Origin: Bacillus sp. SM2101
Lineage (GTDB): Bacteria > Bacillota > Bacilli > Bacillales > SM2101
Direction: 5' to 3'
NCBI RefSeq assembly: GCF_018588585.1
Contig: NZ_JAEUFG010000016.1
Location: 35,280 to 99,279, forward strand
DNA length: 64,000 bases
Part shown: positions 43,638 through 62,206 of the stretch, one piece after another
Position numbering within the stretch: position 1 is the stretch's first letter
How the letters are laid out: every line of letters starts with the position of its first letter
Translations under genes and position numbers: made by a program
The notes under the pieces: generated by a model
Told to the model about the DNA's origin: nothing
The model's input: only the letters and a program-made list of their open reading frames with translations
Database searches by the model: none

Positions 43638-43665
43638 ATTTCTTTCTAGAAGGAGACTATTATAT

Positions 43666-44601
43666 ATGAAAATGTTAAAGACAATTACTCCAATTTTATT
43701 AGTAGGAGTAGTACTTGTGGGCTGTAATTCCAATGAACAAACTACAGAACCTACAAAAATAGAAGGTGGCAAAAAAATTGAACATATGCACGGGTTATCA
43801 TATCAGGATGATACGATCTTTGTTGCTACACATGAAGGAATGATTTCCACTAGTGATAAAGGAGAATCATGGTATACTGTTAGCTCTCATGATAATGATT
43901 TTATGGGTTATCATGCACTATCGAATGGTGAAATGATTACAAGTGGTCATCCAGGGAAGTCATCAAACCTTCCAGATCCTCTAGGACTTTTAAAAAGTAC
44001 TGATAATGGAATTACATGGGAAGAAGTATCGTTACAAGGCAAGATTGATTTTCACATTTTAGATGCAAATTATTCAAATACTGATATTATATATGGTTTG
44101 AATCAAATGGGTAGTGGCAAATATGGGGCAGGTATATTTAAATCAATTGATGGTGGCGAAAATTGGGATAAAATTGAGCCAGTTGGCTTACCAGATGACC
44201 TTCATAAAATTTACACATTAATCTCACTGCCGAATAATGATAGTGAACTACTGGCTGGAACACAGAATGGTGTCATGCGTTCTGAAGATAGTGGAGAGAC
44301 ATGGGAGTTATTAGATGGAAATCGCTTAATTACTGCAATTACAGTTATGCCAAATGAAAGCAAGGACTTAGTGAGCTACTCAATTACACAAGATGAAGCA
44401 GGTATTATGAAAAGTAGCGACAATGGGCAGACTTGGGATTACATTGGTCTAGACTTGGGAGAGGTCGCAGTCAATAATATATCTATAAATACAGATAATA
44501 ATAACTTAATGTCAGTAACAACATTTAACAACTCTGTGTATGTGACTGAAGATGGTGGGGGAAATTGGAAGCAAACGATAGATGCTGGAACTATTAAATA
44601 A
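43666..44601 (+). CDS. BNR-repeat lipoprotein (F510_1955-like, sialidase-fold)
   Basis: 311 residues from ATG 43666 behind AGAAGGAGACTATTATAT; the frame start at 43606 overlaps the previous gene. Lipobox LVGC near residue 19. The mature protein is a beta-propeller with BNR-type repeats: STSDKGESWYTV, KSTDNGITWEEV, KSIDGGENWDKI, RSEDSGETWELL, KSSDNGQTWDYI and VTEDGGGNWKQT. Near the N-terminus is HMHGLSYQDD. Relatives are found in firmicute metal/copper clusters; no enzyme activity is established. A terminator follows. Confidence 0.82.
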   Translation: MKMLKTITPILLVGVVLVGCNSNEQTTEPTKIEGGKKIEHMHGLSYQDDTIFVATHEGMISTSDKGESWYTVSSHDNDFMGYHALSNGEMITSGHPGKSSNLPDPLGLLKSTDNGITWEEVSLQGKIDFHILDANYSNTDIIYGLNQMGSGKYGAGIFKSIDGGENWDKIEPVGLPDDLHKIYTLISLPNNDSELLAGTQNGVMRSEDSGETWELLDGNRLITAITVMPNESKDLVSYSITQDEAGIMKSSDNGQTWDYIGLDLGEVAVNNISINTDNNNLMSVTTFNNSVYVTEDGGGNWKQTIDAGTIK

Positions 44602-44611
44602 CAGCTATAGA

Positions 44612-44641
44612 AGAGACTCGACATATTAGTTGGGTCTTTTC
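44612..44641 (+). terminator. Terminator after the BNR lipoprotein gene
   Basis: AGACTC / GGGTCT stem (one G-T pair), 12-base loop, then TTTTCT. Confidence 0.55.
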
Positions 44642-44897
44642 TATATTTAAGAAATGATGGGTATTACATATTTGAAATTAATAAAATGCTTTAAGAATCT
44701 GCAAAATTTTTCAATTAATTTCGAAGATAGTAATGATAAATAACATAAGCTTGTTGCATAAACTTTGTTGCTACTATTTTTTCACTATTAGCAACACAAA
44801 CGTATTGAACATATGCAATTGAAAGTTATGAATGAAGTTCAATAAATCTGCAAAAATTCTTGCTAGTATAAGAGCAAACGAATGGAGTGAACTGATC

Positions 44898-45134
44898 ATG
44901 ATGGGATGGCTCGATAGCTGCTCTGGTTTTCAAGGAGGAAGTATGATGATGCTAGGGATGTTTATTTTTTGGGGAGGCTTACTTTTCTTGGGGTTTTATC
45001 TTCTGAAAAAATATCTGAATGGCAATAACCATTCATACCAACATCCGATAAATATTTTAAATGAAAGGTTTGCAAAGGGTGAAATTTCTGAAAAAGAATA
45101 TGACCATTTAAAAGCAAAAATAAGAAGTAAATAA
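44898..45134 (+). CDS. SHOCT-domain membrane peptide (78 aa)
   Basis: ATG 44898 follows TGGAGTGAACTGATC; the in-frame ATG at 44832 lacks a site. One membrane helix (MLGMFIFWGGLLFLGFYLLKK split around residue 20-38) followed by the short SHOCT helix pair: ILNERFAKGEISEKEYDHLKA. SHOCT proteins are small, often oligomeric membrane-linked proteins common next to copper and heavy-metal genes in firmicutes. A Met-rich stretch could touch Cu(I). Role unknown. Confidence 0.82.
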   Translation: MMGWLDSCSGFQGGSMMMLGMFIFWGGLLFLGFYLLKKYLNGNNHSYQHPINILNERFAKGEISEKEYDHLKAKIRSK

Positions 45135-45256
45135 CAAAAACTGCTTCTATCTTTTATAAGTAGTTGGGCTAAACAAGTTTAATTTTGACAACGGAGTATT
45201 GTGGAAAATCAATGGAAGATTAGTAGATAATGAACTTAACCAAAGGGGTGAAAGGT

Positions 45257-46744
45257 TTGGGGAAGTTTAGGTTATTGACACTTATAATTGGGGGAATTTC
45301 TTTCATATTAGTTGGGTGTCAACAAACAACTTCAAATGACAATTCAACATCTATAAATATATTAGATATACCAAAGGAAACTCCAAATGAAGAGGAGGTT
45401 GTTACATTTGATATTATTGCTCAATCAACTGTTTGGGAAATAAAAGGTACACGATTTGAAGCTTGGACTTATAATAACGAAATTCCTGGAGAGGAGATTC
45501 GTGTAACCGAGGGAGATTTCATACGTGTTAATTTAAAGAACAACCTTGATGAGCCAGTAACGATTCATTGGCACGGCATGGTTCTCCCTAACATGATGGA
45601 CGGTGTAGCTGGTGTGACACAAAATGCAGTGCAGCCTGATGAGGAATATACCTATGAGTTTGAGGCAATAGAAGCAGGGACGTATTGGTATCATTCTCAC
45701 CAAGATAGTGGTAATCAAGTAGATAGAGGTTTATATGGCGCGCTAATCGTTGAACCTATGGAGAAATCTTATGACCAAGATGTTGTACTAATGGTAGATG
45801 AATGGTCTATAGGTGAAAGTGGTGGAATGATGGACCATATGTCCGGTGGCACACCTGGAGAGATGGACTCACAGATGACCTATGGAACCTTTACTGTAAA
45901 TGGTAAAAGTGCCCCAAATATCGACCCTATTGTTGCTAATTTTGGGGAAAGAGTAAGACTGCGTCTAGTGAATGCTGGATATCAAAAACACTATTTTTAT
46001 TTACAAGGGAACTCTTATAATTTAGTTGCAAATGACGGTAAAGAAGTAATTGGGGCACCGCTAACTTCTGATGTAATTGAGATAGCTCCTGGTGAGCGGC
46101 TAGATATTGAGTTTAACGCTAATCAGAGTAATAATTGGTATATTTCTAGCGTGAACAATGTGGAAGGTGCCAACGATATAAGAATTCCTATCATCGTAAA
46201 TCACGTTGAAAAGCAAGTGGAAGATATAGATCCTGTTGTAGAAGGAAAAAAGGAGTTATCACTTATTGATTTTACAAACATTGGTGAAATGGAGTCGATT
46301 ATTAGCTCAGAAGCCGAGCCAGACCTGATATACGAAATGGATTTGAACGTTGGGATGGGTATGATGGCAGGTGGTATGACTTACAAGATTAATGGGAAAA
46401 CATTTCCTAATACTGATCCTATTAAAGTTCAGAAAGGTGACGTAGTAAAAGTAACGATTATAAATAATAGTATGTTAGACCATCCGATGCATTTACACGG
46501 TCACTACTTTCAAGTGATAACGAGAAATGGAGAGAGGTTAAAAAATCCATTAGTAAAAGACTTAATTAATGTTAAACCACATGAACAATATGAGATATTA
46601 TTTACTGCTGATAACCCAGGAGAATGGGTCTTTCATTGCCATGACCTTGTCCATGCTGGAAATGGGATGGTAACAGTTGTTAAATACAATGGATATTATT
46701 CACCATTTGAATTAGAAGGAGAGTACTTCAATAAACCCGAATAA
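45257..46744 (+). CDS. mco: Multicopper oxidase, lipoprotein type
   Basis: 495 residues from TTG 45257, which follows AAAGGGGTGAAAGG and gives a normal lipoprotein signal (lipobox LVGC); an ATG 27 bases upstream at 45230 is possible. All four copper-binding segments are present: HWHGM (about residue 104), YHSHQDSG (about 145), HPMHLHGHYF (about 410) and HCHDLVHAGNGM (about 460). Three cupredoxin domains. A Met-rich loop (GGMMDHMSGGTPGEMDSQM) points to cuprous-oxidase activity like CueO. It would oxidise Cu(I) to less toxic Cu(II) outside the membrane, working with CopB. Confidence 0.92.
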   Translation: MGKFRLLTLIIGGISFILVGCQQTTSNDNSTSINILDIPKETPNEEEVVTFDIIAQSTVWEIKGTRFEAWTYNNEIPGEEIRVTEGDFIRVNLKNNLDEPVTIHWHGMVLPNMMDGVAGVTQNAVQPDEEYTYEFEAIEAGTYWYHSHQDSGNQVDRGLYGALIVEPMEKSYDQDVVLMVDEWSIGESGGMMDHMSGGTPGEMDSQMTYGTFTVNGKSAPNIDPIVANFGERVRLRLVNAGYQKHYFYLQGNSYNLVANDGKEVIGAPLTSDVIEIAPGERLDIEFNANQSNNWYISSVNNVEGANDIRIPIIVNHVEKQVEDIDPVVEGKKELSLIDFTNIGEMESIISSEAEPDLIYEMDLNVGMGMMAGGMTYKINGKTFPNTDPIKVQKGDVVKVTIINNSMLDHPMHLHGHYFQVITRNGERLKNPLVKDLINVKPHEQYEILFTADNPGEWVFHCHDLVHAGNGMVTVVKYNGYYSPFELEGEYFNKPE

Positions 46745-46788
46745 GTTTATGTCATATAACGAGTTTCTTATTTTTCTATACTTTCTTT

Positions 46789-46924
46789 ATAATTATGGCT
46801 CTTTTCATAAACTTTACTCATCAGTCATCGTTTTATAGAAGAATAGTTACCTAAAGCCTAGTTGTATACGTGTTTGTTATTTCGTACGAAAAACAACATT
46901 CTATACGAAAACAGTCATAATTAT
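46789..46924 (+). mobile_element. MITE-like repeat copy I with perfect 8-bp target duplication
   Basis: Element 46797-46916 (120 bp): starts GGCTCTTTTCATAAAC, contains ATCGTTTTATAGAAGAATAG and CCTAGTTGTATACGTG, ends TATACGAAAACAGTC. It is flanked on both sides by ATAATTAT (46789-46796 and 46917-46924), a perfect target-site duplication. No transposase inside, so it would move in trans. Confidence 0.82.
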
Positions 46925-46976
46925 TGTATTTAGTGAGCATAAAAGTGTTAACTTGAAAATTAAAGGTGGTTTTGTT

Positions 46977-47708
46977 GTGTATGCTTTATTTAGTCAGATA
47001 AGTAACTTTTTTAGTCAGCCTTTTATGAATATTGCGTATAGCGTTGAAGGTATTCCGCTGGCATCTGCATTTGTTTTGGGCATTGTTGGTGCAATGGCAC
47101 CTTGTCAATTTACAGGGAATATTGGTGCAATTACTCTTTACGGGAATCGGTCCATGCAAGAAAAACTTGCATGGAAAGAAGTGATCTATTTCATTATCGG
47201 GAAAATAACTGCATTTTCTTTACTAGGATTATTAGTATGGTTGCTAGGACGTGAGTTTCAGCAAAGTCTAACCTTATATTTTCCTTGGTTTAGGAAAGTA
47301 ATTGGGCCAATTTTAATATTAATGGGTATTTATTTAATGGGGTTTTTCAAAATGACTTGGAATCTGCAGCTAATTAACATACCAGACAGTTATTTTAAAA
47401 AAAGTAAATTTGGCTCATTTCTAATGGGATTAAGCTTCTCCTTAGCATTCTGTCCAACGATGTTCATCTTATTTTTTGTTACATTAATGCCAATCGTTCT
47501 ATCTACTTCTTATGGAGTTATTTTACCAACAATTTTTGCTTTAGGTACGTCTATCCCTGTTCTAATAGCGTTGTTTTTAATATGGTATTTTGGCTTGGGA
47601 GGTTCATTAATGAAAAAAGGTAGAAAACTAGGGAAACGAATTCAAATGATTGCTGGTATTATCATTATTATAATAGGTATCTTTGATACAATAACTTATT
47701 GGGCTTAA
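46977..47708 (+). CDS. CcdA/DsbD-like thiol transport membrane protein
   Basis: 243 residues from GTG 46977 behind AAAGGTGGTTTTGTT. Six membrane helices; the paired redox Cys appear as GAMAPCQFTGNIG (about residue 42) and LAFCPTMFILFF (about 160), the CcdA signature of Pro-flanked cysteines in helices 1 and 4. It should pass reducing power from cytoplasmic thioredoxin to the outside. In a copper cluster it may keep Cys of copper proteins reduced. A MITE insertion sits right before it and may have separated it from its original promoter. Confidence 0.85.
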   Translation: MYALFSQISNFFSQPFMNIAYSVEGIPLASAFVLGIVGAMAPCQFTGNIGAITLYGNRSMQEKLAWKEVIYFIIGKITAFSLLGLLVWLLGREFQQSLTLYFPWFRKVIGPILILMGIYLMGFFKMTWNLQLINIPDSYFKKSKFGSFLMGLSFSLAFCPTMFILFFVTLMPIVLSTSYGVILPTIFALGTSIPVLIALFLIWYFGLGGSLMKKGRKLGKRIQMIAGIIIIIIGIFDTITYWA

Positions 47709-47711
47709 ACT

Positions 47712-47750
47712 ATAGTCATAGCAGCAACAGACTGCTATGACTATTTTATT
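47712..47750 (+). terminator. Strong terminator after the CcdA-like gene
   Basis: ATAGTCATAGCAG / CTGCTATGACTAT, 13-bp perfect stem with a seven-base loop and TTTTATTT tail. Confidence 0.9.
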
Positions 47751-47814
47751 TAGGACATTTTTTAGAGGAAGTTATGTCATATGGTCAAAGTAAAAGATAA
47801 ATAAAATATTTAAG

Positions 47815-47843
47815 TTGACAATTACCATAGGGGGGTATAGTAT
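47815..47843 (+). promoter_or_regulatory. copB promoter with CsoR-like operator
   Basis: TTGACA at 47815-47820 and TAGTAT at 47838-47843 (17-base spacer). Between them lies TACCATAGGGGGGTATAG, close to the Bacillus CsoR operator pattern TACCC-TA-GGGGGTA. The repressor would sit on the promoter and be released by Cu(I). No csoR gene is coded in the window. Confidence 0.7.
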
Positions 47844-47946
47844 AAAAGTAAGAAAACAACATAAGGTTATTAATTAAGAGTAAGGCTAAAGGCTATTCAA
47901 ATTTTACTTCAACATAAATTCCAATTATGGAAAGGGCGGGTTATTG

Positions 47947-50250
47947 ATGATGAAAGGTAAAAAGACTCATCAAAATGTGGGTAATCCTGAAAGACATACA
48001 CATCAAGAACATGATGACCATAAACAACATGGACATGTAGGACATAATCACCTGGAACATAATAGTCATAATCACCGAGAACATAATAGTCATAATCATA
48101 ACGAGCACGATGGTCATAATCATCAAGAACATAATAGTCATAATCATAACGAACACGATGGTCATAATCACCGAGAACATAATAGTCATAATCACCGAGA
48201 ACATAATAGTCATAATCATAACGAACATGATGGTCATAATCACCGAGAACATAATAATCATAATCATAACGAACACGGGGGGCATAATCACCAAGGCCAT
48301 GGAGGGCATAATCATGGGCATATGATTGCTGACTTTAAGAGGAGATTCTATATTTCTTTAATAGTAACAATACCAATATTAATTTTTTCTCCAATGATCC
48401 AATCGATTTTAGGGTATGAATTAAGTTTTTATGGAGTAAATTATGCTCTGTTTATTTTAGCAACATTCATTTTTTTCTATGGGGGAAAGCCTTTTTTAAC
48501 AGGTTCTTACGATGAGCTGAAACAAAAGAGCCCTGGAATGATGACCTTAATAGCACTTGCGATTGTAGTGGCGTATATATATAGTACCTTGACTGTCTTT
48601 GGTTTATCAGGAAATAATTTCTTCTGGGAATTAGCCACCCTCATTGACATTATGTTATTAGGGCACTGGATAGAAATGCGATCAGTAATGGGAGCTTCTA
48701 ATGCTCTGGAAGAATTAGCGAAAATGATTCCTTCAGAGGCTCATCTGATAGATGAAAATGGAGAAATAACAGATGTTAACATTAGTCATTTAACCCAAGG
48801 AAATAAAGTTCTAGTAAAACCTGGTGAAAAGGTCCCTGTTGATGGAACTATTATTAAGGGGAACTCTTCCATCAACGAATCTATGCTGACAGGTGAATCA
48901 GTACCAGTTGAAAAAACAATAGACGATGGGGTGATTGCAGGATCCATAAATGGAGAAGGATCTTTAACCATACAAGTAGAAAAAACGGGAGAAGATAGCT
49001 ATCTTTCCCAAGTAGTAAAGATGGTTAAAGAAGCCCAAGAATCAAGATCCAAAACACAGGATTTAGCTAATCGAGCTGCTAAATGGTTATTTTATCTAGC
49101 ACTAATTGCTGGGTTCGTTACATTGGTAACATGGTTATTGCTGGGGTACCCTTTTGTTTATGCGTTAGAACGTATGGTAACTGTAATGGTAATTGCTTGT
49201 CCTCATGCTTTAGGTTTAGCAGCTCCATTAGTTGTAGCTAGATCTACAGCATTAGCTGCAAAGCAAGGGTTATTAATCAGAAACCGTGCTAACTTTGAAG
49301 AAGCACGAAATATTCAATCCATTGTCTTTGATAAAACGGGTACTTTAACCGAGGGTGAATTTGGTGTAACTGATATCATGACTGAAAATGGCTATGAAAA
49401 GAAGGATGTTTTACAACTTGCAGCTTCTCTAGAAGTATTGTCTGAACACCCGATTGCTAAAGGGATAGTTGGAGAAGCAAAAGCTCAAAAATTAACTTTT
49501 TATCAGCCAGATGAGTTTGAATCGATGACAGGTAAAGGGCTAAAGGGAATTGTAAAAGGTAAAGAGATTTTACTAGTCAGCCCTGGTTTTGTTAAAGCAA
49601 ATAATATAAGATTTCAACAAGAAACGTTTGAGAGATTATCTGAGCAAGGAAAAACTGTAATCTTTGTATTAATTAATAGTGAAGTAGCTGGAATGATTGC
49701 ACTTGCTGATAAAGTTAGAGAAAGTGCTGAACGTGCAATCGCACGTTTGAAGAATATCAATGTCCAATCGTTGATGTTAACTGGAGATAATTACAAAGTA
49801 GCTCAATGGGTTGGAAAGCAATTGAATTTAGATGATGTAGTTGCAGAGGTATTACCACATGAAAAAGCAGACAAGATAAAAGAACTAAAAGCAACCGGTT
49901 TAAAAATAGCAATGACAGGGGATGGGGTCAATGATGCACCTGCTTTGGCAAACGCTGATCTCGGAATAGCTGTAGGAGCAGGTACTGATGTTGCAATGGA
50001 GACTGCAGATGTTATTTTAGTAAAAAGTAATCCTGAAGATGTTGTGTCCATCCTTGAGCTTTCAAAATCAACATATAGAAAAATGATTCAGAATCTTTGG
50101 TGGGCAACAGGGTATAATATTGTCGCGATTCCACTTGCAGCTGGAATCCTATCACCAATAGGAATCGTATTAAGTCCAGCAGTAGGAGCTGTATTAATGT
50201 CTCTAAGTACTGTAATTGTTGCGATAAACGCACGATTGTTCAAAGGTTAA
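47947..50250 (+). CDS. copB: Copper-translocating P1B-type ATPase, CopB class, with His-rich N-terminus
   Basis: 767 residues. Residues about 10-125 are a His/Asn-rich arm of repeats such as EHNSHNHNEHDGHNH, an extended metal-binding region. The ATPase core follows: TGES (about 316), the CPH motif of CopB-class pumps in CPHALGLAAP (about 418), phosphorylation site DKTGTLTEG (about 462) and TGDGVNDAP (about 657). CPH-type pumps export Cu(II)/Cu(I) or Ag. TTG/ATG starts cluster at 47944-47950 behind AAAGGGCGGG; 47947 is taken. A CsoR-like operator precedes it. Confidence 0.93.
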   Translation: MMKGKKTHQNVGNPERHTHQEHDDHKQHGHVGHNHLEHNSHNHREHNSHNHNEHDGHNHQEHNSHNHNEHDGHNHREHNSHNHREHNSHNHNEHDGHNHREHNNHNHNEHGGHNHQGHGGHNHGHMIADFKRRFYISLIVTIPILIFSPMIQSILGYELSFYGVNYALFILATFIFFYGGKPFLTGSYDELKQKSPGMMTLIALAIVVAYIYSTLTVFGLSGNNFFWELATLIDIMLLGHWIEMRSVMGASNALEELAKMIPSEAHLIDENGEITDVNISHLTQGNKVLVKPGEKVPVDGTIIKGNSSINESMLTGESVPVEKTIDDGVIAGSINGEGSLTIQVEKTGEDSYLSQVVKMVKEAQESRSKTQDLANRAAKWLFYLALIAGFVTLVTWLLLGYPFVYALERMVTVMVIACPHALGLAAPLVVARSTALAAKQGLLIRNRANFEEARNIQSIVFDKTGTLTEGEFGVTDIMTENGYEKKDVLQLAASLEVLSEHPIAKGIVGEAKAQKLTFYQPDEFESMTGKGLKGIVKGKEILLVSPGFVKANNIRFQQETFERLSEQGKTVIFVLINSEVAGMIALADKVRESAERAIARLKNINVQSLMLTGDNYKVAQWVGKQLNLDDVVAEVLPHEKADKIKELKATGLKIAMTGDGVNDAPALANADLGIAVGAGTDVAMETADVILVKSNPEDVVSILELSKSTYRKMIQNLWWATGYNIVAIPLAAGILSPIGIVLSPAVGAVLMSLSTVIVAINARLFKG

Positions 50251-50288
50251 GATTGGAAAATATTGATAAAAAATATTAATAAGTTAAG

Positions 50289-50330
50289 AAACGCCACTAA
50301 AGACTAAATAGTTTTGAGGTGGTGTTTTTT
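50289..50330 (+). terminator. Terminator after copB
   Basis: AACGCCAC / GTGGTGTT stem with a long loop and seven T. Confidence 0.75.
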
Positions 50331-53395: not shown

Positions 53396-53505
53396 TGAGA
53401 AAACAGCCCTAAAAAATAGAGATCATTTAAGTTGAAGTCATGAAAAGATATTGACATTTCAAATATATCAAGCTATTATATTAATTATTCACGACAATAT
53501 ATTGT

Positions 53506-53578
53506 GATTCCGTAGCTCAGCTGGGAGAGCGCTACCTTGACAGGGTAGAGGTCGCTGGTTCGAGACCAGTCGGAATCA
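53506..53578 (+). tRNA. tRNA-Val (GAC)
   Basis: 73 nt. Acceptor GATTCCG / CGGAATC, D arm GCTCAGCTGGGAGAGC, anticodon stem CTACC / GGTAG with loop TTGACAG (anticodon GAC), T arm CTGGTTCGAGACCAG, discriminator A; CCA not encoded. A terminator follows. Prophage remnants begin just downstream, so it may mark the attachment site. Confidence 0.95.
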
Positions 53579-53581
53579 TCC

Positions 53582-53814: not shown

Positions 53815-54175
53815 ATTAAGGCAACAAAACGACGTGGTAAAGCTACTAAAAACGCAAGAGTAATCGGGCAACAGAAATCTATCAACGATTTAGAAGAATT
53901 GTTTTCACGATTTAAAGCGATTAAAATAGCCGAAGGTCGTGCGGAGAAAACTCTAAAACAGTACGATCACAACTACGGTTTTATTCGTGATTATTTAGGG
54001 TGCAACGGAATTGATGGAAATATAAAATGTATTAGAAAAATACCATTAGAGACTCTATTGTATTTATGCGTGAAAGACTAGTGAAATTAAGATCATAAAT
54101 ATAAAACCGATAAGGACAAGGAAGTCGGGTTATCTCCAGTGACTATTAATACGCGTCTAAAAATGGTCGTCCTCA
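53815..54175 (+). pseudogene. Tyrosine integrase N-terminal remnant (prophage)
   Basis: The frame from 53821 reads RRGKATKNARVIGQQKS, then LEELFSRFKAIKIAEGRAEKTLKQYDHNY, the SAM-like N-terminal domain of tyrosine recombinases, and stops at 54081. After a frameshift, GLSPVTINTRLK, another integrase hallmark, is read near 54133-54168. The catalytic domain is missing. A good ribosome site (AAAGGAG) is followed by ATT where ATG is expected (53815), so the start codon also seems lost. It lies 240 bases past tRNA-Val, as integrases often do. Confidence 0.75.
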
Positions 54176-54246: not shown

Positions 54247-54672
54247 CTATCTCACAGGACTGCTTGAAACAACAGTGTTAGATATACATCTTTCAGTGAT
54301 AGTAAAGTTATAATTTATCACACAAATTTCTCCTGTACTTCCATTAGTACATGTTAAAGTTATTTGAGTGACGTTTCTATATGAGATGCATATAACATCT
54401 CCTTCAATACAAGGACCTAAAGGAAAATCCATCCCGTTTGAGGTTACTACTATTAGTATTTCACACGTTGTAGTAGGTTCTATGGTAATTGTACCGTTTA
54501 CAGATCCTATAGTATTTCCATTAAAAAAGGAAAATGTTGGACTGCCGCACTCTCGCTCAATTCTCCCTGAGCATTGGTCGGTAATTACTGGACAATCACA
54601 ACAAGCAGTTTGTTCTTTGGCTGTAGATACAGTACTACCGCAACATGATGATTTTGAAACATACGCGCTCAT
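54247..54672 (-). CDS. Ena-like (DUF3992-type) spore appendage subunit candidate 1
   Basis: 141 residues, ATG 54672 behind GAGGTAGAATA. N-terminal Cys connector SSCCGST (Cys10-11) and ACCDCP (Cys24, 25, 27), then a beta-rich core (NGNTIGSVNGTITIEP, ILIVVTSNG, GDVICISYRNVTQITLTC) and a Cys-bearing C-terminal strand (GEICVINYNFTI). A Cys-Cys N-terminal arm plus a jelly-roll-like core is the plan of S-Ena endospore appendage subunits, which crosslink into fibres by disulfides. Its promoter layout matches the three plus-strand paralogues. Assignment rests on motif layout only. Confidence 0.62.
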   Translation of the reverse strand: MSAYVSKSSCCGSTVSTAKEQTACCDCPVITDQCSGRIERECGSPTFSFFNGNTIGSVNGTITIEPTTTCEILIVVTSNGMDFPLGPCIEGDVICISYRNVTQITLTCTNGSTGEICVINYNFTITERCISNTVVSSSPVR

Positions 54673-54703
54673 TATTCTACCTCATTTCATAGTTTGTTTG
54701 CGG

Positions 54704-54738
54704 TATTGTATGGTTAATCAATTCGTTTTGATTAGACG
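54704..54738 (-). promoter_or_regulatory. Sigma-K-type promoter of Ena-like gene 1
   Basis: On the minus strand CGTCTAATCA (54729-54738), sixteen bases, CATACAATA (54704-54712), then 31 bases to the ATG. The same two boxes precede the other Ena-like genes. Confidence 0.55.
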
Positions 54739-54823
54739 ATTGAGTAAATATTTTGGTGTTTTACAGCTAATCGCATTCAGCGTGGTTGGCTTTTTTAGAT
54801 TCCGAAAAAGGAGTCAATCTAAC

Positions 54824-55006
54824 ATGGCGCAAACACAGCGCGAAGTTGGCGAATTCACAGTGAAATTAAACGTTGAGGTGTCTGATGTTATTACTGGGTT
54901 AAAGGCTATTCAACGTGAAGCAAAGAAAGCAACGCAGGCACTTCGGGAGTTGGAGAGTATTTGCTTATCGTTAATACGGTCGGCTTTTTATATTGTGAAA
55001 GGTTAA
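54824..55006 (+). CDS. Small phage-type helical protein (60 aa), possibly truncated
   Basis: ATG 54824 behind AAAAAGGAGTCAATCTAAC. REVGEFTVKLNVEVSDVITGLKAIQREAKKATQALREL is typical of short accessory proteins in Bacillus phage early or packaging regions. The last 15 residues look non-native. After the stop, another phage-like fragment is read out of frame (VGNEPERYTFNPSVFYRQNKK..., about 55030-55110), so this stretch is decayed. Function unknown. Confidence 0.55.
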   Translation: MAQTQREVGEFTVKLNVEVSDVITGLKAIQREAKKATQALRELESICLSLIRSAFYIVKG

Positions 55007-55461
55007 CGCAAGCAGGGTGCGAGGATTAAAGTTGGCAATGAGCCGGAGCGATACACGTTTAATCCTAGCGTGTTTTATCGTCAGAATAAGAAGCCGGACG
55101 ATACATTACTCGCCATGTTTAACGTGAAGAAAAGGTATTTATTCTCAATTAGAATAACGTAAATGATAATGAGTGTGACCTTATTCCCATAACCAAAAAC
55201 AGGGTTCACCATAGAGCGACAAGGGATGTAGAGATTTTTAGTGCGAAATTATATCTTAATCTTTGTCTACTAACCAAGATTGCGCCTCATTCGTTTCTCT
55301 CATTCGTCGCTGTCCTCTTTATCGCTGGTTATTAAATTATCGGCGAGGAAAGGTATTAATGGACAGTGATGACTTGAGCAAGGCGAAAGGCGGCACAATG
55401 GTTTTGAACTTATTAAATCGGTATGTATTCGCAAAGTATTACGGAAAGGAGGGCGTTAATT

Positions 55462-55855
55462 ATGGTACGGAATTTAACAAAAGCACAAATAACGGCAATT
55501 AAGATATTAGCAATGCCGAAAAGAAACAGAATGAAGTACGCTGAAATAGCCGAAGAGGTAGGCGTTACAGAACTTACATAACAAAGGATGGCGTAAGCTC
55601 GATCACTTTAACGAAGAATTACATCGTCAGATTATGCGCAATACAGTCGATAGATTACCGGAAGTAATGGAGTCGATATACCCGATCACATAAACAAGGA
55701 TAGTAATGCTGCGATGTTTAGGACGTTGTTTCAGGTGCATAGTAGTTAACGGAGAAGGTCGAAATCGATTCGATAGATAAAGAGGAAGGCGTTAGTATGT
55801 CGGATGTGAGAGTGAAGATCGAACGGTTTAAGCAAACGGTAGACACTGACGAATA
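55462..55855 (+). pseudogene. phBC6A51-type terminase small subunit remnant
   Basis: From ATG 55462 (behind GGAGGGCGTTAATT) reads LTKAQITAIKILAMPKRNRMKYAEIAEEVGVTE, the HTH head of phBC6A51 family (terminase-small-like) phage proteins, then stops. After shifts it continues WRKLDHFNEELHRQIMRNTVDRLPEVMES and MSDVRVKIERFKQT up to a stop near 55855. At least two frameshifts. Copies of its last 60 bases recur before the next two Ena-like genes. Confidence 0.7.
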
Positions 55856-55900
55856 GATAGCGGAATTGTAGGGTGAACTTGATGTCGGTTGAGGTCGTAC

Positions 55901-55933
55901 GTCCAATCAGGGTAAAAATACGAGCATATTATA
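55901..55933 (+). promoter_or_regulatory. Sigma-K-type promoter of Ena-like gene 2
   Basis: GTCCAATCA (55901-55909) and CATATTATA (55925-55933), spaced fifteen bases, one less than in the sister promoters. 30 bases to the ATG. Confidence 0.5.
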
Positions 55934-55963
55934 TCGTAAATCTGTGATTATGGAGGTTGAGCG

Positions 55964-56359
55964 ATGTCTCAGTATAAGAAAGTAAGTACGTGTTGTGGAA
56001 GTACAATCGTAAAGGATGAAAAAGCGTGCGATTGTCCTTGTCTATTGTTTACTGGTGATATTACTTCAAATTTCTCGGTAGATAGCGTCAATACAACATC
56101 GGAATTATATAATGGAAAAGCAATTGGAATTGTAGGTACGGTGCTATTAACTTTAGCAACATTAAACTTGAATGATGTAGTCGTATTTAACTTTTTTTCA
56201 AATGGTACATTAAACAAGTCTATAACTTTAAATGCCAATCAATTTAACAAATTTTTCACATGCGATAATGTAACTAGAATTGAAGTAGTGTTTGTGGCTG
56301 GTACGGACCCTGTAGAAGGGTTAATGCGTTGGGGAGCAGTGAATGAGCCTTGTAAGTAA
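55964..56359 (+). CDS. Ena-like (DUF3992-type) spore appendage subunit candidate 2
   Basis: 131 residues, start behind TGGAGGTTGAGCG. Cys arm: VSTCCGST (Cys10-11) and ACDCPC (22, 24, 26). The core carries VNTTSELYNGKAIGIVG, VVVFNFFSNGTLNKSITLNAN and NVTRIEVVFVAG, ending EPCK with a C-terminal Cys. It is a paralogue of the products at 58383 and 59043 (same start QYKKVSTCCGS, same ELYNGxxxG and FxSNGxxxxITL positions). Probable self-assembling, disulfide-linked surface fibre subunit (inference). Frame intact although its phage surroundings are broken. Confidence 0.65.
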   Translation: MSQYKKVSTCCGSTIVKDEKACDCPCLLFTGDITSNFSVDSVNTTSELYNGKAIGIVGTVLLTLATLNLNDVVVFNFFSNGTLNKSITLNANQFNKFFTCDNVTRIEVVFVAGTDPVEGLMRWGAVNEPCK

Positions 56360-56466
56360 ATAAGTCTACAAGCCGAACCTGACGCGCGGTACCTCGAACA
56401 CTTCCACCTTAAAACGGAAGGTTAATTGTATGCACTATTTTAGCGAGTAAAGGGAGTTCGACAAGC

Positions 56467-56549
56467 TAGAAACGCGGTCATATCAACGATGTATAAAATC
56501 GTGTATGATTGATAAATTTACGTGAGTTAGAAACGCGGTCATATCAACG
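56467..56549. repeat. Direct repeat pair in the module spacer
   Basis: A 22-base sequence beginning TAGAAACGCGGTCATATC occurs at 56467-56488 and 56528-56549, 61 bases apart. A weaker third start (TAGAAACGAATGACG) follows near 56591. The copy-2 spacer keeps one altered unit near 60002. Purpose unknown; between genes, no coding potential seen from 56360 to 56778. Confidence 0.7.
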
Positions 56550-56778
56550 GTTATGACCACGTATTGGTTCCTATAGTTACTATTATGTAAACTAGAAACG
56601 AATGACGTATACAGCGATATACACGAATCGGAGTGAGGTCGCAAAGGGAAAACGACTGCCCCCAAAGCGCGCCCAACGAATAGCCCTTATTAGACGGAAA
56701 AACAATGCGGATTCAAAAAATCACTTTGACCTTGCGCTCACATACACTAGTAAAAACGATTGTAAGGAGGTCGGTACA

Positions 56779-57829
56779 ATGGTACTGGCTTATGTTGTGA
56801 ATGCCAGGTAACAGAGTTTCCGTTATTGATACGAAAACACAATCTGTAATTGCTACCGTTTTGGTGGGGGCAGGGGCTAATAATATTGCGATTTCACCTG
56901 ACGGGAAACTAGCTTATGTTACTTTCACTAGAGATGTGATAAGTGGTGTGTCAGTTATTGATACGAAAACACACTCGGTTATTGCAAATATTCAATTAGG
57001 GGTTGGAGCCGTAGGTATCGCTTTTACACCTGATAGTAAACTTGCCTATATTGTAATCGATTCAGGTGATATATCAGCGATCGACACGAAAACTCATTCT
57101 GTTATTGCAACTGTCCCAGTAGGTGCCGATCCGGAAGCAATAGCAATCACACCAAATGGGAAACTAGCTTATGTCGCAAATCGAGGAACAATTAATGAAC
57201 CAGCTACTGTGTCAATCATAGATATTAAAACTCATAGTGTGATCGCGACAGTAGTTGTGAGTATGGGGGGAGATCCGTTTGCAGTTGAAATCACAACTAG
57301 ATTATAATGTAAATCGACTTGTAGACAGTATAGCAGTTATCGATACAAAGACGCACTCTATTGTTGCAACTATTCAAGTAGGAGACGGTCCACAAGATGT
57401 TAAATCTACACCTGACGGGAAACTAGCTTATGTTGTAAATCAAGGTGATGATGTAATTTCTGGCTCTGTTACAGTAATTGATGTGAAAACGCATTCTATA
57501 GTGGCTACAATTTCAATAGCATCTCCCGATGAAAGCCCAGTTAATATGACCGAGTGAGTTTTTGTATCAATTACACATACAGTACTATCCCTTTCATTAC
57601 CCACATAAGCTAATTTCCCATCTGGGGTAAACTCTAAAAAACGAAGGTTGTTGTCTACTTGAAAAATGGTAGCTATGATTGATTGTGTTTTTACATCGAT
57701 GGCAGTAATCGTATTTCCGTCACGAGCATCTACATAAACAAGTTTTCCATCAGGTGTAATAGCAATGGTCATCGCAAACGTTCCTGTCGGTACTAATCCT
57801 GAGGCGATTGCATTCAGCCCTAACTAACC
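56779..57829 (+). pseudogene. YVTN beta-propeller protein, disrupted (two frameshifts plus an internal inversion)
   Basis: ATG 56779 behind AAGGAGGTCGGTACA opens MVLAYVVNA and stops; one base later the frame continues VSVIDTKTQSVIATVLVG with repeated blades of the type VIDTKTHSVIATxxVGxxP / ITPDGKLAYVxN. A second shift lies near 57290 (loss of about ten bases). At 57546-57772 the sequence is inverted, and the last blade (PVGTNPEAIAFSPN) reads plus-strand again. Propellers of this type are surface or exported proteins, often repetitive. A terminator follows at 57843. Not functional as it stands. Confidence 0.8.
57546..57772. other. Precise inversion inside the propeller gene, bounded by ATGACC / GGTCAT
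   Basis: Between ATGACC (57546-57551) and GGTCAT (57767-57772) the propeller coding sequence runs on the minus strand (TIAITPDGKLVYVDARDG ... VCVIDTKTHSV). Turning the segment back restores one continuous frame at both joints: SPVN-MTIAITPDGK and THSV-IANVPVG. Confidence 0.85.
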
Positions 57830-57842
57830 TAAACTAAATTCA

Positions 57843-57870
57843 CGCTCGCTCATCAACCGGCGAGCTTTTT
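57843..57870 (+). terminator. Terminator after the YVTN propeller gene
   Basis: GCTCG / CGAGC with 12-base loop and five T. The copy-2 equivalent is at about 60772-60798. Confidence 0.6.
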
Positions 57871-57903
57871 CGCGTGAACTAACACGGAATGGAGGACGAT
57901 CTT

Positions 57904-58176
57904 ATGGCGTGGGAAAATGGCGAATGGCTAGATTATGATGAGCGCCAGCACAAAATTGAAGAAATAAACGAAATTATCACGTTAATTGACGCTGAGTATA
58001 ATTCAGCCGAAGATATGCCGGTCGAAATTGTGCAAGACTACTTCGAACTAATCGAAAAGTTAGAGCGTTTTAACCGAATTCACCGTGTCGAACGCGACTT
58101 GCTTTACTGTGCATACGAATATTTCGCCGAAAACTTGAACCCGGAAAACTCCGATAACTGGATTCCGAGGCAGTAA
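57904..58176 (+). CDS. Phage-type acidic helical protein (90 aa)
   Basis: ATG 57904 follows GGAGGACGATCTT. MAWENGEWLDYDERQHKIEE, then three acidic helices (IITLIDAEYNSAEDMP, YFELIEKLERFNRIHRVERDLL) and the end NSDNWIPRQ. No Cys, no membrane segment. Composition is like small proteins near phage packaging genes. A truncated copy lies at 60832-60927, fused to terminase sequence. Function unknown. Confidence 0.6.
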   Translation: MAWENGEWLDYDERQHKIEEINEIITLIDAEYNSAEDMPVEIVQDYFELIEKLERFNRIHRVERDLLYCAYEYFAENLNPENSDNWIPRQ

Positions 58177-58320
58177 CAAAACGTTGAGTGTGTGGGATAT
58201 TAAAGAGAAGATCAAGCGGTTTAAGGGCGGTAAAGAGGAGGATGAATAGAGTTTTCGCTTATCGATAGAATAGTAGACAGGACATAAGCAAATGTAAGTA
58301 GTTGTTTCGTTTTTGCGTCC

Positions 58321-58350
58321 AATCACGGTTATAAATACCGGCATAATATA
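58321..58350 (+). promoter_or_regulatory. Sigma-K-type promoter of Ena-like gene 3
   Basis: CGTCCAATCA (58316-58325) overlapping AC (58325-58326), fifteen bases, CATAATATA (58342-58350). 32 bases to the ATG. The preceding 100 bases are nearly identical to those before Ena-like gene 4. Confidence 0.6.
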
Positions 58351-58382
58351 CCGTATTAAACTGTGATAGCGGAGGTCGAACG

Positions 58383-58793
58383 ATGAGTCAATATAAAAAA
58401 GTGAGTACCTGTTGCGGGAGTACAATCAAGGAAGGAAAAACGTGTGATTGTCCGTGTCAATTGCTCGCGGATGTTATAAGTGCTCAAAATAACGGTTTAA
58501 ATAGTACGAATAATAATATAGCAGAAGTATACAACGGTAGAGCAGTTGGAATACATGGTAAGGCAGAGTTAAAAGATGGTATAACAAATCCTACTGGGAT
58601 GGGTGAAGTCGTTATTAATTTTACTTCAAATGGTATTTTACAGCCTATAACCTTAAAATTAAAGGGTGTAGGCAGTATCTCTAGTAAAATTTTTTCATTC
58701 CTAAATGTAACCAAAATAGAAGTGATAGTTATGAGTGGAGTGGACCTAAATGTACTTGTATCTCTCGATGGAATGACAGAGTTATGTAGTTAA
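58383..58793 (+). CDS. Ena-like (DUF3992-type) spore appendage subunit candidate 3
   Basis: 136 residues, ATG 58383 behind GCGGAGGTCGAACG. Cys10-11 in VSTCCGST, then CDCPC (21, 23, 25), linker, and the beta core AEVYNGRAVGIHGKAEL, VINFTSNGILQPITLKL, FSFLNVTKIEVIVMSG, ending DGMTELCS. Closest relative here is the second domain of the next gene (same VYNGRA, INFTSNGI, QPITL, FLNVTKI phrases). Intact frame; promoter region duplicated with the gene. Confidence 0.68.
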   Translation: MSQYKKVSTCCGSTIKEGKTCDCPCQLLADVISAQNNGLNSTNNNIAEVYNGRAVGIHGKAELKDGITNPTGMGEVVINFTSNGILQPITLKLKGVGSISSKIFSFLNVTKIEVIVMSGVDLNVLVSLDGMTELCS

Positions 58794-58975
58794 GCCTGCA
58801 AGCCTAACCCTTTCGCCTTGAATCAGAAGGTTAATCGTATGCAGGATAATGTAGTAAAGCGTAGGTAGATCAAGCGGTTTAAGGGCGGTAAAGAGGAGGA
58901 TGAATAGGGTTATCGCTTATCGATAGAATAGTAGACAGGACATAAGCAAATGTAAGTGTAGTTGTTTCGGTTTTA

Positions 58976-59010
58976 CGTCCAATCACGGTTATAAATATTG
59001 GCATAATATA
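58976..59010 (+). promoter_or_regulatory. Sigma-K-type promoter of Ena-like gene 4
   Basis: CGTCCAATCA (58976-58985), AC (58985-58986), fifteen bases, CATAATATA (59002-59010). 32 bases to the ATG. Confidence 0.6.
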
Positions 59011-59042
59011 CTTTATTAATCTGTGATTGTGGAGGAATAACA

Positions 59043-59837
59043 ATGGGTCAATACAAGAAAGTAAGTACATGTTGCGGGAGTGCTACTGATAAGGAAAAAA
59101 CGTGTGATTGTCCGTGTTTATTGATTGTAGATAATATAATTACTTTAAACAGGAATATGAATGATTCAACTAATAATACAGCTGAAGTATACAACGGTAG
59201 GCCAGTTGGATTGCAAGGTGAGGTCGAATTAACGTCGGAATCGGGAGTACCTATGGGTGTCGGGATTGTAATAATTAATTTTACATCAAACGGTATTGTA
59301 CAGCCTATAACATTAGATCTATCTTCTAGAAACACTAACAAAATATTTTCGTTGTTAAATGTAACTAAAATAGAAGTGAATGTTATGACTGGTGAGAATC
59401 TGAATGTGTGTGTAACTTGTGATGGAATGACAGAACCGTGTAAAAGGGGCAGTATAGGCTATAGTGCAGTTGAAAAAGTAACGCAATGCGATTGTTCGTG
59501 TCAGCTACTTGCCGACGATATAGGTACCACAAATACTGGCTTAAATAGTGTGACTAATAATTTGGTGGAAGTATACAACGGCAGAGCAATTGGATTTCAC
59601 GGTGAGGTCGTTTTAAGAGAAGATCAAACAGACCTAGACGGTGTAGCAGAGGTAATTATTAATTTTACTTCAAATGGGATTATACAGCCTATAACTTTAA
59701 ATTTAAACGAGGTTGACACTACCGCTCACAAAATGTTTTCATTTTTAAATGTAACTAAAATAGACATAATGGTTTTGAGTGGGGAAAATTTAGCAGTAGA
59801 TATAGATATTGATGGAATGACAGAACCGTGTAGCTAG
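59043..59837 (+). CDS. Two-domain fusion of Ena-like subunits, candidate 4
   Basis: 264 residues, ATG 59043 behind TGGAGGAATAACA. Domain 1 (residues 1-138): VSTCCGS, CDCPC, AEVYNGRPVGLQG, IINFTSNGIVQPITLDL, ending GMTEPCK. A short join GSIGYSAVEKV leads to domain 2 (about 150-264): TQCDCSCQLL, VEVYNGRAIGFHG, IINFTSNGIIQPITLNL, GMTEPCS. Domain 2 has lost the first Cys-Cys pair of the arm but keeps CDCSC. It looks like two tandem genes fused by an in-frame deletion. A covalent double subunit would change how fibres assemble (inference). Confidence 0.68.
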   Translation: MGQYKKVSTCCGSATDKEKTCDCPCLLIVDNIITLNRNMNDSTNNTAEVYNGRPVGLQGEVELTSESGVPMGVGIVIINFTSNGIVQPITLDLSSRNTNKIFSLLNVTKIEVNVMTGENLNVCVTCDGMTEPCKRGSIGYSAVEKVTQCDCSCQLLADDIGTTNTGLNSVTNNLVEVYNGRAIGFHGEVVLREDQTDLDGVAEVIINFTSNGIIQPITLNLNEVDTTAHKMFSFLNVTKIDIMVLSGENLAVDIDIDGMTEPCS

Positions 59838-60247: not shown

Positions 60248-60745
60248 ATGGTACGGGCTTACGTTGTTAACGAAACTTCAACCGGTAATGTTTCTGTGAT
60301 TGATGTGAATACACATAGCGAGATTGCAAGGGTTACAGTTAGTGGTTTACCAATATAGCGGTCACACCGTTCGTAAAACTTGCGTATATTACGAACGGTG
60401 GTTCCGGTACTAATTCGGTAACAGTCATCGATACTAAAACACATTCCGTTATAGCAAGAGTACTGGTCGAAAGTTGCAATTACCTCGAATGGTAAATTTG
60501 CGTATGTAGTTACTCGAAATGGAAATACAGTCACGGTCATTGGTACTAAAACCCATTCAATCATAGCAGTAGTCGGAGTGGATAGCTAACAACGTTTTGT
60601 TTCTTTTACACCCGACGGAAAACCTGCTTATGTCGGAAATAATGGTAGTAATAATGTTTCAGTAATTGACGTAAAAACTCATTCACTAATTGCTATAGTT
60701 CCCGTATATACTGAACCAACTGCTATCGCATTCACACCGTGTTAA
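60248..60745 (+). pseudogene. YVTN beta-propeller remnant, copy 2
   Basis: MVRAYVVNETSTGNVSVIDVNTHSEIARVTVSG opens well (unlike copy 1) and stops at 60357. Further blades are readable in other frames: AYITNGGSGTNSVTVIDTKTHSVIARVLV, then NGNTVTVIGTKTHSIIAV, and FTPDGKPAYVGNNGSNNVSVIDVKTHS. The last ends at a TAA at 60743. At least three frameshifts or deletions; shorter than copy 1 and without the inversion. Confidence 0.75.
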
Positions 60746-60831
60746 TGTAATTTATCTTAAAAAAAATTTACGCTCGTTCATCAATCGGCGAGCTTTTTCG
60801 AGTGAACTAAAACGGAAAGGAGGACGATCTT

Positions 60832-60927
60832 ATGGAGTGGAAAAGTGGCGAATGGCTTGATTATGACGAGCGCAAACATAAAATTGAAAAAATAAACGAA
60901 ATTAACACGTTAATTGACGCTGAGTGA
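60832..60927 (+). pseudogene. Truncated copy of the 90-aa GEWLDYDER gene
   Basis: Starts like 57904 behind the same GGAGGACGATCTT and reads WKSGEWLDYDERKHKIEKINEINTLIDAE, then TGA. Directly after the break, terminase sequence begins, which places the duplication endpoint at about 60925. Confidence 0.75.
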
Positions 60928-60929
60928 TT

Positions 60930-61735
60930 TATCGCCCAATACTATTTCACCCCAAAAACATGGCGTTATGGGAACAATGTTGCGATATCTATCAAGATCG
61001 CAATAACGCGATCGGAGCCGATCACGCACTCGCATTTTACGAAACCAATCACCAGGAAATGGATGATGGTGCCGACGTGCTTTGGCCGGATGTTCAGCCG
61101 TTGTACAAGCTGATGAAATGAAAGTGGGACAACGGGTCAAATGCGTTCAACACCGCGTATCAAAATAATCCACTCGATGATATTTGTTTCAGAGCACCTT
61201 TCGTATTGGAATGAGAACACATCAAAGTTTGATTACAAATCAAACTAATTTTTAATAAAGATGGGCGTTGACTTTGTGATGGGTAAAAAGAAAGACGAGT
61301 ACTCGGCTATTGGTGATGTTGCGAAGGATAAAACAACGAACACATTTTACGTTATTGATTCCTGGGGCGAAGGTGTGTTAAGCCCGACGTATTTATGAAA
61401 AAGATCATTGAAATGACGCTAAAATATCAGCCCCACGGTATAGCAGCCGAGGCGCAAATGGCGCAGGAATTCTTTGTCGATGAACTGAAAAAGGCATTAA
61501 GAATAGTTAATTACCCGGCACACTCACGCGTTCATAAAATTCAGCAAAGATAACGAAAAGATCTTCGAATCGAGGTGGTTTTTCCAGATGTTGGAATCGC
61601 AGGTAAGATAATCACGCCCTGTTGCTCGAACAATTTGAACGATATGGAACGGGTGAGGTTGACGACTTAATTGACGCAATGGAGCAGGCGATTTCAATAT
61701 CGAAGAAGGTGAGAGCGCGGGTAATGGAAAAACCA
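60930..61735 (+). pseudogene. Phage terminase large subunit remnant
   Basis: First part: YRPILFHPKNMALWEQ, ALAFYETNHQEMDDGADVLWPDVQPLYKLMK, then a stop and YQNNPLDD. After a gap the nuclease domain is seen: GVDFVMGKKKDEYSAIGDVAKDKTTNTFYVIDSWGEG (with the catalytic-type Asp), VFMKKIIEMTLKYQPHGIAAEAQMAQEFFVDELKK, and further pieces to about 61735. The ATPase half is missing and there are several frame breaks. Identifies the element as a tailed-phage relic. Confidence 0.75.
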
Positions 61736-62017: not shown

Positions 62018-62206
62018 ATGTTCGAAATAGGTAAGCAGTTTCCACCGGCAGTTGAAGTTGAACGCTTAGCAAAATATAAACGCGGTAAATCGTTCTTTGA
62101 CGGCAAACAACACGAAGTCTATCAACGCGCATCGGAACTATTAAAAGACACACCTTTTGCGTTTAAAATGGAAAAGATATATATCGCGATTAACGGTAAT
62201 TATTAA
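62018..62206 (+). pseudogene. Phage portal protein N-terminal fragment
   Basis: ATG 62018 behind AAAGGAGGCGGTGCA. FEIGKQFPPAVEVERLAKYKRGKSFFDGKQHEVYQRASELLKD and FAFKMEKIYIAIN resemble the start of SPP1-type portal proteins, but the frame ends after 62 residues. It follows terminase large, the usual order. It marks the last recognisable piece of the prophage relic. Confidence 0.55.

Follow-up and report, generated by a model that had tools for sequence, protein, structure and literature searches.

Four Ena-like genes in the window

The window analysed here is a 64,000-nucleotide (nt) stretch of the genome of Bacillus sp. SM2101 (contig NZ_JAEUFG010000016.1, positions 35,280 to 99,279 of the forward strand), in which four genes resembling those for the Ena proteins of endospore appendages lie among the remains of a prophage. 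They are numbered 1 to 4 by position, and all coordinates are those of the window unless a contig is named.

54247..54672, minus strand: Ena-like gene 1, 141 amino acids (aa), with a CCGST arm and an ACCDCP cluster; its AlphaFold2 model is closest to Ena3A, Ena2A, Ena1C and Ena1B
55964..56359, plus strand: Ena-like gene 2, 131 aa, CDCPC type
58383..58793, plus strand: Ena-like gene 3, 136 aa, CDCPC type
59043..59837, plus strand: Ena-like gene 4, 264 aa, with two cores in tandem

All four frames run intact from ATG to stop, as a first-pass annotation of this DNA had it, and the features which it had listed for them (an N-terminal cysteine arm, a second cysteine cluster, an SNG turn and a C-terminal cysteine) occur in every one. 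Cys10 and Cys11 are present throughout, the second cluster occupies residues 24/25/27, 22/24/26, 21/23/25 and 21/23/25 in genes 1 to 4, respectively, and the last cysteine is close to the C-terminus (residues 129, 130, 135 and 263). Genes 2–4 form one clade, with an arm like MSQYKKVSTCCGST..CDCPC, a beta-rich core and an end that is mostly GMTE.C, and gene 1 represents a second clade, with ACCDCP; the second core of gene 4 is without the CCGS arm and carries CDCSC. Chance open reading frames (ORFs) are ruled out as an account of the four by family profile matches in the same genome and by the ratios of nonsynonymous to synonymous substitution (dN/dS) given below.

Relationship to endospore appendage proteins

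The five best Foldseek chains from the PDB and the four best VIA entries matching the AlphaFold2 model of gene 1 are all Ena proteins, and its predicted jelly-roll core resembles those of the S-Ena/L-Ena family (PF13157; Ena1A/B/C, Ena2A, Ena3A). A second likeness is the flexible N-terminal arm with Cys10 and Cys11: in the two models made, those of genes 1 and 3, the connector (residues 1–27 in one and 1–24 in the other) falls below 50 in the predicted local distance difference test (pLDDT). Genes 2–4 are tied to the Enas through a chain of profiles, compared core to core after removal of the arms, so that the cysteine arm alone could not drive the similarity, and each set against 60 column shuffles. 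The genes 2–4 clade scores 60.3 against the gene 1 clade (shuffle maximum 18.8), the gene 1 clade scores 50.6 against 20 Enas (shuffle maximum 24.8), and the genes 2–4 clade scores 32.0 against the Enas (probability 73%, shuffle maximum 20.3); column shuffling also abolishes strand periodicity, and this last and weakest score is therefore no more than suggestive. A paralogue on C20, found with the window-family profile, lies above the PF13157 cut-off (38.0 bits), and its 49% relative in Bacillus sp. SCS-151 is annotated 'S-Ena type endospore appendage'. The fold match of gene 1 and the profile chain of genes 2–4 support the view that the four window proteins are divergent Ena relatives.

Several results weigh against that kinship. 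The search against the DUF3992/Ena model proposed in the first-pass annotation came back empty, with none of the four proteins matching Pfam Enas (PF13157) at E ≤ 1, and none matches an NCBIfam spore model at E ≤ 0.1. The alignment for gene 1 contained two PF13157 proteins, the model of gene 3 is of low confidence (pLDDT 69) with no Ena among the fold matches listed, a result that excludes nothing, and gene 3 has no cysteine between residues 25 and 135 as a core partner. Searching the PDB by sequence likewise gave no Ena match for gene 3, A2 or A3. Since the window proteins stay under the PF13157 cut-off, we file them as Ena relatives and not as members. The proposal that they are S-Ena/DUF3992 subunits thus stands for the Ena relationship, through the fold of gene 1 and the profile links, and falls for PF13157 membership; structure prediction gave a jelly-roll matching the Enas and an N-terminal connector for gene 1, and a model without an Ena match for gene 3. 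The window family also differs from S-Ena/L-Ena in the extra CDCPC cluster of genes 2–4, in the tandem cores of gene 4, in that the genes 2–4 clade is found in this genus only, and in that it often adjoins beta-propeller genes, partly in prophage remains. F-ENA (DUF4183, with its partners F-Anchor and F-BclA) is, in the available text of PMC11952670, similarly a spore appendage that docks through an N-terminus of hook type and has collagen-like neighbours, but it is a separate family, and the window proteins are without a Pfam match to DUF4183.

The cysteines allow a comparison with Ena1B, in which, according to the portion of PMC8619143 at hand, each connector is tied to preceding subunits by bonds from its Cys10 and Cys11 to their Cys109 and Cys24. 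Gene 1 has 13 cysteines, including 10, 11, 24 and 108, the last two near Cys24 and Cys109 of Ena1B, and by position it would fit this disulphide scheme; gene 2 has seven, including 10, 11, 24 and 100. Gene 3 has cysteines only at 10, 11, 21, 23, 25 and 135 and would need another pairing, perhaps with its CDCPC cluster. The lack of a core partner in gene 3 and the failure to reach the Pfam cut-off would both suit a protein of the spore surface that forms no appendages, a cysteine-linked component of the coat or exosporium with the arm as its anchor, and so would a collagen-like gene beside the Ena-like gene on C26, the one such gene tested, whose weak BclA_C match (21.9 vs 38 bits) indicates a surface setting that does not require fibres. 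We think this rather unlikely, given the predicted fold of gene 1, which is like that of fibre-forming Enas, and the Cys10–Cys11 pair in all four proteins.

The window-family profile finds 14 places in the genome at E ≤ 1e-3, corresponding to 13 genes, one of them two-domained, with the 15th place at E 0.16. PF13157 itself finds 14 places at E ≤ 10, seven of them above the cut-off, with strong ones on C8 and C24 among these; a sequence search of the PDB with a canonical Ena-like protein of C8 finds Ena1B (7a02; E 1.4e-6). Multi-core proteins at G000:C42:24111-24977 and G000:C44:6300-6491 match PF13157 weakly for the most part, with a single place of the four above the cut-off, and are perhaps another Ena-related branch. 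Matches of gene 2 to a tRNA_anti-like domain (18.3 bits against a cut-off of 23.5) and of the Ena-like protein of the C33 element described below to the H-type small acid-soluble spore proteins (18.4 vs 47.9 bits) were set aside as noise.

Among 397 genomes of the order, with no more than ten candidates scored in each, the genes 2–4 clade occurs in two, this one included, and the two genomes of the genus both have it; a profile including gene 1 has matches in three of 61 genomes, again counting this one. Named relatives come from Cytobacillus sp. IB215316, whose protein P0001 is 94% identical to gene 3, IB215665 and Hm23, and from Bacillus sp. SCS-151. A scan of genome contigs gave no match in a collection from which this and near genomes are possibly absent.

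A promoter-like block shared by the family

Each of the four genes is preceded by a promoter-like element.

54704..54712, minus strand: CATACAATA, sigma-K/E-like -10 of gene 1
55903..55933, plus strand: promoter-like block CCAATCA...CATATTATA, conserved
58319..58350, plus strand: promoter-like block CCAATCA...CATAATATA
58979..59010, plus strand: promoter-like block CCAATCA...CATAATATA

The upstream block TACGTCCAATCA...CATANNNTA is conserved, and 5' of it identity drops to 22–38%. Its downstream part, CATANNNTA, which we take to be a sigma-K/sigma-E -10 element, lies 20–55 nt upstream of 14 of the 21 family genes, compared with two of 176 other ORFs that have 150 codons or more; the 21 genes are related and hence are not independent counts. 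The joint promoter pattern occurs nine times genome-wide, five of them upstream of Ena-like genes, and the reversed control once. A block with CATANNNTA would fit mother-cell expression, as expected of such genes. The accessible text of PMC12921279 (2026) argues from timing that sigma-K likely drives ena genes, and that of PMC5749712 mentions a sigma-K consensus for the appendage region of C. taeniosporum.

Selection on the Ena-like genes

In 13 of 14 coding comparisons dN/dS lies between 0.13 and 0.39, the other (C1 vs G001:C2, where G001 is the other genome of the genus) being 0.575 on three changes. The seven that involve window genes give 0.264, 0.366, 0.344, 0.278, 0.332, 0.305 and 0.392, well under 1, a sign of purifying selection that bears out the suggestion that these genes are kept by selection; they include gene 4 against its G001:C31 partner (0.264), gene 2 against G001 (0.366) and the two cores of gene 4 against each other (0.392), and in the two comparisons of gene 1 dS is saturated. 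Arm and core differ in their rates. Across eight copies (27 pairs, one close pair excluded) identity is 78% in the arm (dN 0.12, dS 0.85) and 41% in the core (dN 0.54, dS 1.53); the low dN of the arm beside its dS points to an arm kept by selection, and not by recent copying alone.

A decayed prophage and a bounded relative

The phage remains around the four genes are listed here, with identities to a second element of the same genome (C33).

53505..53581, plus strand: tRNA-Val(gac), likely the attachment (att) site (ARAGORN)
53821..54078, plus strand: integrase remnant that matches the integrase annotated in Bacillus phage vB_BauS_KLEB27-1 (41% over 73 aa, E 2e-8), with stops further on and no Pfam or PHROG match
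54824..55006, plus strand: small phage ORF remnant (phrog_27153; PHROG 3.1e-11 to the ORF containing the remnant), a copy of which adjoins the C33 integrase
55462..55856, plus strand: remnant of the small terminase subunit gene (terS) in three frames with stops, DNA 73% identical to the C33 terS region
57889..58176, plus strand: N-terminal piece of the large terminase subunit gene (terL), cut at 58176, 41–42% to Paenibacillus phage terL among the matches listed
60753..61708, plus strand: second set of terL pieces, a copy of 57825–57997 (repeat D5) followed by middle and C-terminal parts that match the C33 terL
62018..62206, plus strand: N-terminal piece of the portal gene, cut at 62206, 56% over 55 aa to the vB_BauS_KLEB27-1 portal

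The decayed phage setting noted in the first-pass annotation is confirmed by the tRNA-Val and the remains of integrase, terS, terL and portal, all four of which are broken by stops, frame breaks or cut ends. The terS tail at 55462..55856 scores 107 against a shuffled maximum of 40, the region 57889..58176 is 88% identical in DNA to the end of the C33 propeller gene and the start of its terL, and 61395–61553 has a weak PHROG terL match (E 7e-4); 41% identity links the terL of phage vB_BauS_KLEB27-1 to the C33 copy. The array was made partly by duplication. The protein test finds terS tails upstream of genes 2 and 3, and gene 4 is linked to terS only via a 91-nt DNA repeat; to that extent the idea of a terS tail before every plus-strand window gene holds. 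As window and contig stop at the same point, a right att site is beyond reach.

The left flank recurs in G001, where the match is interrupted by an 11.7-kb gap, and is followed there by tRNA-Val(gac) (G001:C14) and an island of Ena-like, propeller, terL and portal genes, among which three propellers are apparently intact and three Ena-like genes intact. The window locus thus has no empty site in G001, and the island is likely older than the split of the two genomes. On C26 of the SM2101 genome, the tRNA-Val 3' end and the DNA following it recur as a 153-nt copy (88%), directly upstream of a further Ena-like gene with two propellers and a scrap of terL.

The C33 element is bounded on both sides. 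It occupies 10.2 kb between tRNA-Leu(taa) and tRNA-Leu(caa), is flanked by 41-bp direct repeats that are the 5' part of tRNA-Leu(caa), and has the gene order terS, Ena-like gene, propeller, terL. Its integrase has both integrase domains, its terS has a PHROG match of 1.2e-18, and its terL is frame-shifted and about 62% identical to those of Bacillus and Paenibacillus phages; an amidase and a second propeller complete the genes noted. The site is empty in G001, where the end of tRNA-Leu(taa), within which the G001 contig starts, leads directly into the whole tRNA-Leu(caa), and in this comparison 119 nt at 99% span the left junction, ending at the end of the repeat. As the C33 copy lies between att repeats, at least one Ena-like gene lies inside a phage element. 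Window and C33 share DNA across the junctions of terS with the Ena-like gene (73%), of the latter with the propeller (78%) and of propeller with terL (88%), and the Ena core has diverged. The same host-type insertion in two elements at different tRNAs favours a cassette that the phage already had when it integrated; the shared junctions may also come from prophages recombining with each other within the cell.

The claim that these genes are phage cargo therefore finds support in the att-bounded C33 element, and the window itself, on a contig that ends without a right att site, does not provide it; nor does the C4 copy described below, which lies outside a prophage. Given intact genes in the window remains and the same order in the bounded element, phages likely moved such spore genes between chromosomal sites. 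For the window as a whole we consider it probable that four Ena-relative genes, with predicted expression late in the mother cell and likely encoding spore fibres linked by the cysteine arm, sit amid what is left of a temperate phage, between whose terminase genes there was likely an Ena-like gene with a propeller.

Beta-propeller genes and other neighbours

Two propeller genes lie near the Ena-like genes of the window.

56779..57787, plus strand: broken propeller gene, 3' part inverted (C16:92095-93066)
60404..60739, plus strand: second broken propeller gene, three stops (C16:95683-96018)

These are indeed broken, as the first-pass annotation had them, in several frames and partly inverted. 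It had listed them together with the phage genes, and they belong instead to a host-wide family of YVTN/YncE type, with 104 matched pieces over this genome, 61 in G001 and none in G055. The expansion is very large, with examples on C9, C14, C42, C43, C57 and C73. At four of the six loci of the genes 2–4 clade in this genome (C16, C4, C26 and C33) there is a propeller piece within 1 kb, and at none of the other four loci, which all belong to the gene 1 clade; DNA as close as this to one of the 95 pieces taken for this count makes up 2.6% of the genome. Upstream of the propeller genes, CATACANTG is seen by eye in seven of 15, with a near variant in several more; CATANNNTA is found in one of 15, and the idea that the two families share it was given up. 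A genome-wide preference of the cassettes for tRNA neighbours was also abandoned: by eye, only C16, C33, C26 (a tRNA scar) and C4 are close, among many propeller clusters.

Collagen-like (GPPGPPG) genes occur near Ena-like and propeller genes at L050:13446-13994, L050:14273-14842 and L051:1830-2375. The Ena-like gene of C1 (L056:3700-9411) adjoins ORFs that by eye resemble sugar-nucleotide and polysaccharide genes, and the first of them could encode a spore polysaccharide cytidylyltransferase. Beside the G001 island, a 577-aa ORF (L043:3399-5132) resembles by eye a reverse transcriptase fused to a trypsin-like protease and is possibly a defence gene, and a BsrG-type RNA (Rfam RF01412, 100.7 bits) is found at L043:1978-2231. 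Elsewhere in the window, 43600–50300 holds a cluster that appears by eye to handle copper, with a multicopper oxidase (45230–46744) and a P-type ATPase with a His-rich N-terminus (47944–50250).

Phage cargo or host cassette

The reading of the window as Ena relatives carried by a phage has a number of results against it. Seven of the 21 family genes are without CATANNNTA, and two G001 family copies contain stops, so that decay does happen in the family. There is no detected terS tail upstream of the G001 partner of gene 2. Among 50,697 phage records no match was found for genes 1, 2 or 3, the C20 paralogue or the canonical Ena-like protein (gene 4 was not searched), plasmids gave no match for gene 3, and viral contigs gave none for profile A3, in a collection from which this and near genomes are possibly absent. 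The intact-looking prophage of 38.9 kb on C4 (G000:C4:8254-47138; L091, L092, L049), bounded at tRNA-Ala(ggc) by att repeats of 51 bp, contains neither an Ena-like match nor a listed propeller match between the repeats, and an Ena-like gene and four propeller ORFs start 0.35 kb past attR. The C9 copy stands between the genes for pyrroline-5-carboxylate reductase and zinc uptake, and around the C1 copy (sugar-nucleotide and tRNA-synthetase-like ORFs) and the C20 copy no phage gene is evident by eye. Outside the coding sequence, gene 4 is alike to its G001:C31 partner over no more than about 70 nt upstream and about 45 nt downstream, a similarity limited to gene and promoter, which argues that gene plus promoter moves alone.

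Much of this would be accounted for if the Ena-like and propeller cassettes were chromosomal spore genes that multiply in the genome and enter resident prophages, which would then be victims and not vectors. The copies among host-type genes at C9, C1 and C20 and the C4 copy just beyond attR make this a serious rival, and the 104 propeller pieces over the genome, the short shared flanks of gene 4 and the lack of matches in the phage records and viral contigs searched also favour it. We nevertheless hold it to be improbable on balance, as the C33 copy lies within att repeats at a site that is empty in G001, as the terS/Ena and propeller/terL junctions are common to two elements at different tRNAs, and as terS tails persist upstream of genes 2 and 3. 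A structural or decoration protein of the phage (a tail or head fibre) that resembles Ena by chance, as the position between packaging genes and weak PHROG matches of genes 2 and 4 (E 0.003–0.2, taken as noise) might suggest, is rejected as most improbable in view of the phage records searched, the sporulation-type promoter block and the C20 paralogue above the Pfam Enas cut-off among host-type genes.

Discussion

If the window holds phage-carried Ena relatives, its Ena-like genes would be expressed by the mother cell at a late stage of sporulation, and their subunits would cross-link through the Cys10–Cys11 arm as in Ena1B. The constant arm (78%) could let subunits of differing cores (41%) mix in one fibre, the propeller may be located on the spore too, and the cassette would already have been in the phage before integration. 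A more tentative reading, less likely than not, is that the temperate phages infecting this genus bring with them a cassette for spore-surface conversion, which would place an Ena-like subunit and a propeller, under a sporulation promoter of their own, between terS and terL, and that lysogeny would thereby remodel the spore coat; a docking arm with swapped cores would join existing fibres and diversify the surface, possibly affecting adhesion or phage exposure.

Temperate phages carry lysogenic conversion cargo (morons), and C33 is similar in holding, between phage genes and within att bounds, a non-phage gene with its own promoter-like block. It differs in that the cargo would act on the spore surface, and in that no intact phage carrying an Ena-like gene was found among those searched. 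SP-beta in spsM, as described in the accessible portion of PMC4191935, likewise ties a phage element to the spore envelope, but SP-beta interrupts a host gene, whereas here the phage element contains a spore-type gene. Searches of the literature on appendages and DUF3992, on appendages and prophages, on ENA gene transfer and on phages and spore surfaces, mostly of papers outside subscription, gave among the papers listed no title or abstract start that ties Ena genes to phages; no word beginning with 'phage' occurs in the main texts, as available, of PMC11952670, PMC12921279 and PMC8619143, and the parts of PMC5749712 at hand treat the prophages of C. taeniosporum separately from its appendage genes. 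What is described here is a divergent Ena-like clade, seen in one genus only, with at least one copy in a bounded phage element, and is not categorically new.

The functions of spore appendages 'remain poorly understood' in the words of the available text of PMC12921279. If phages ferry Ena-like genes, infection can change spore surfaces, and spores with and without the C33 element would then give a direct test of what appendages do; C33 is a natural presence/absence pair that makes their role testable. The constant arm and variable cores of the family are, in turn, a natural set for finding the residues through which subunits dock into fibres.

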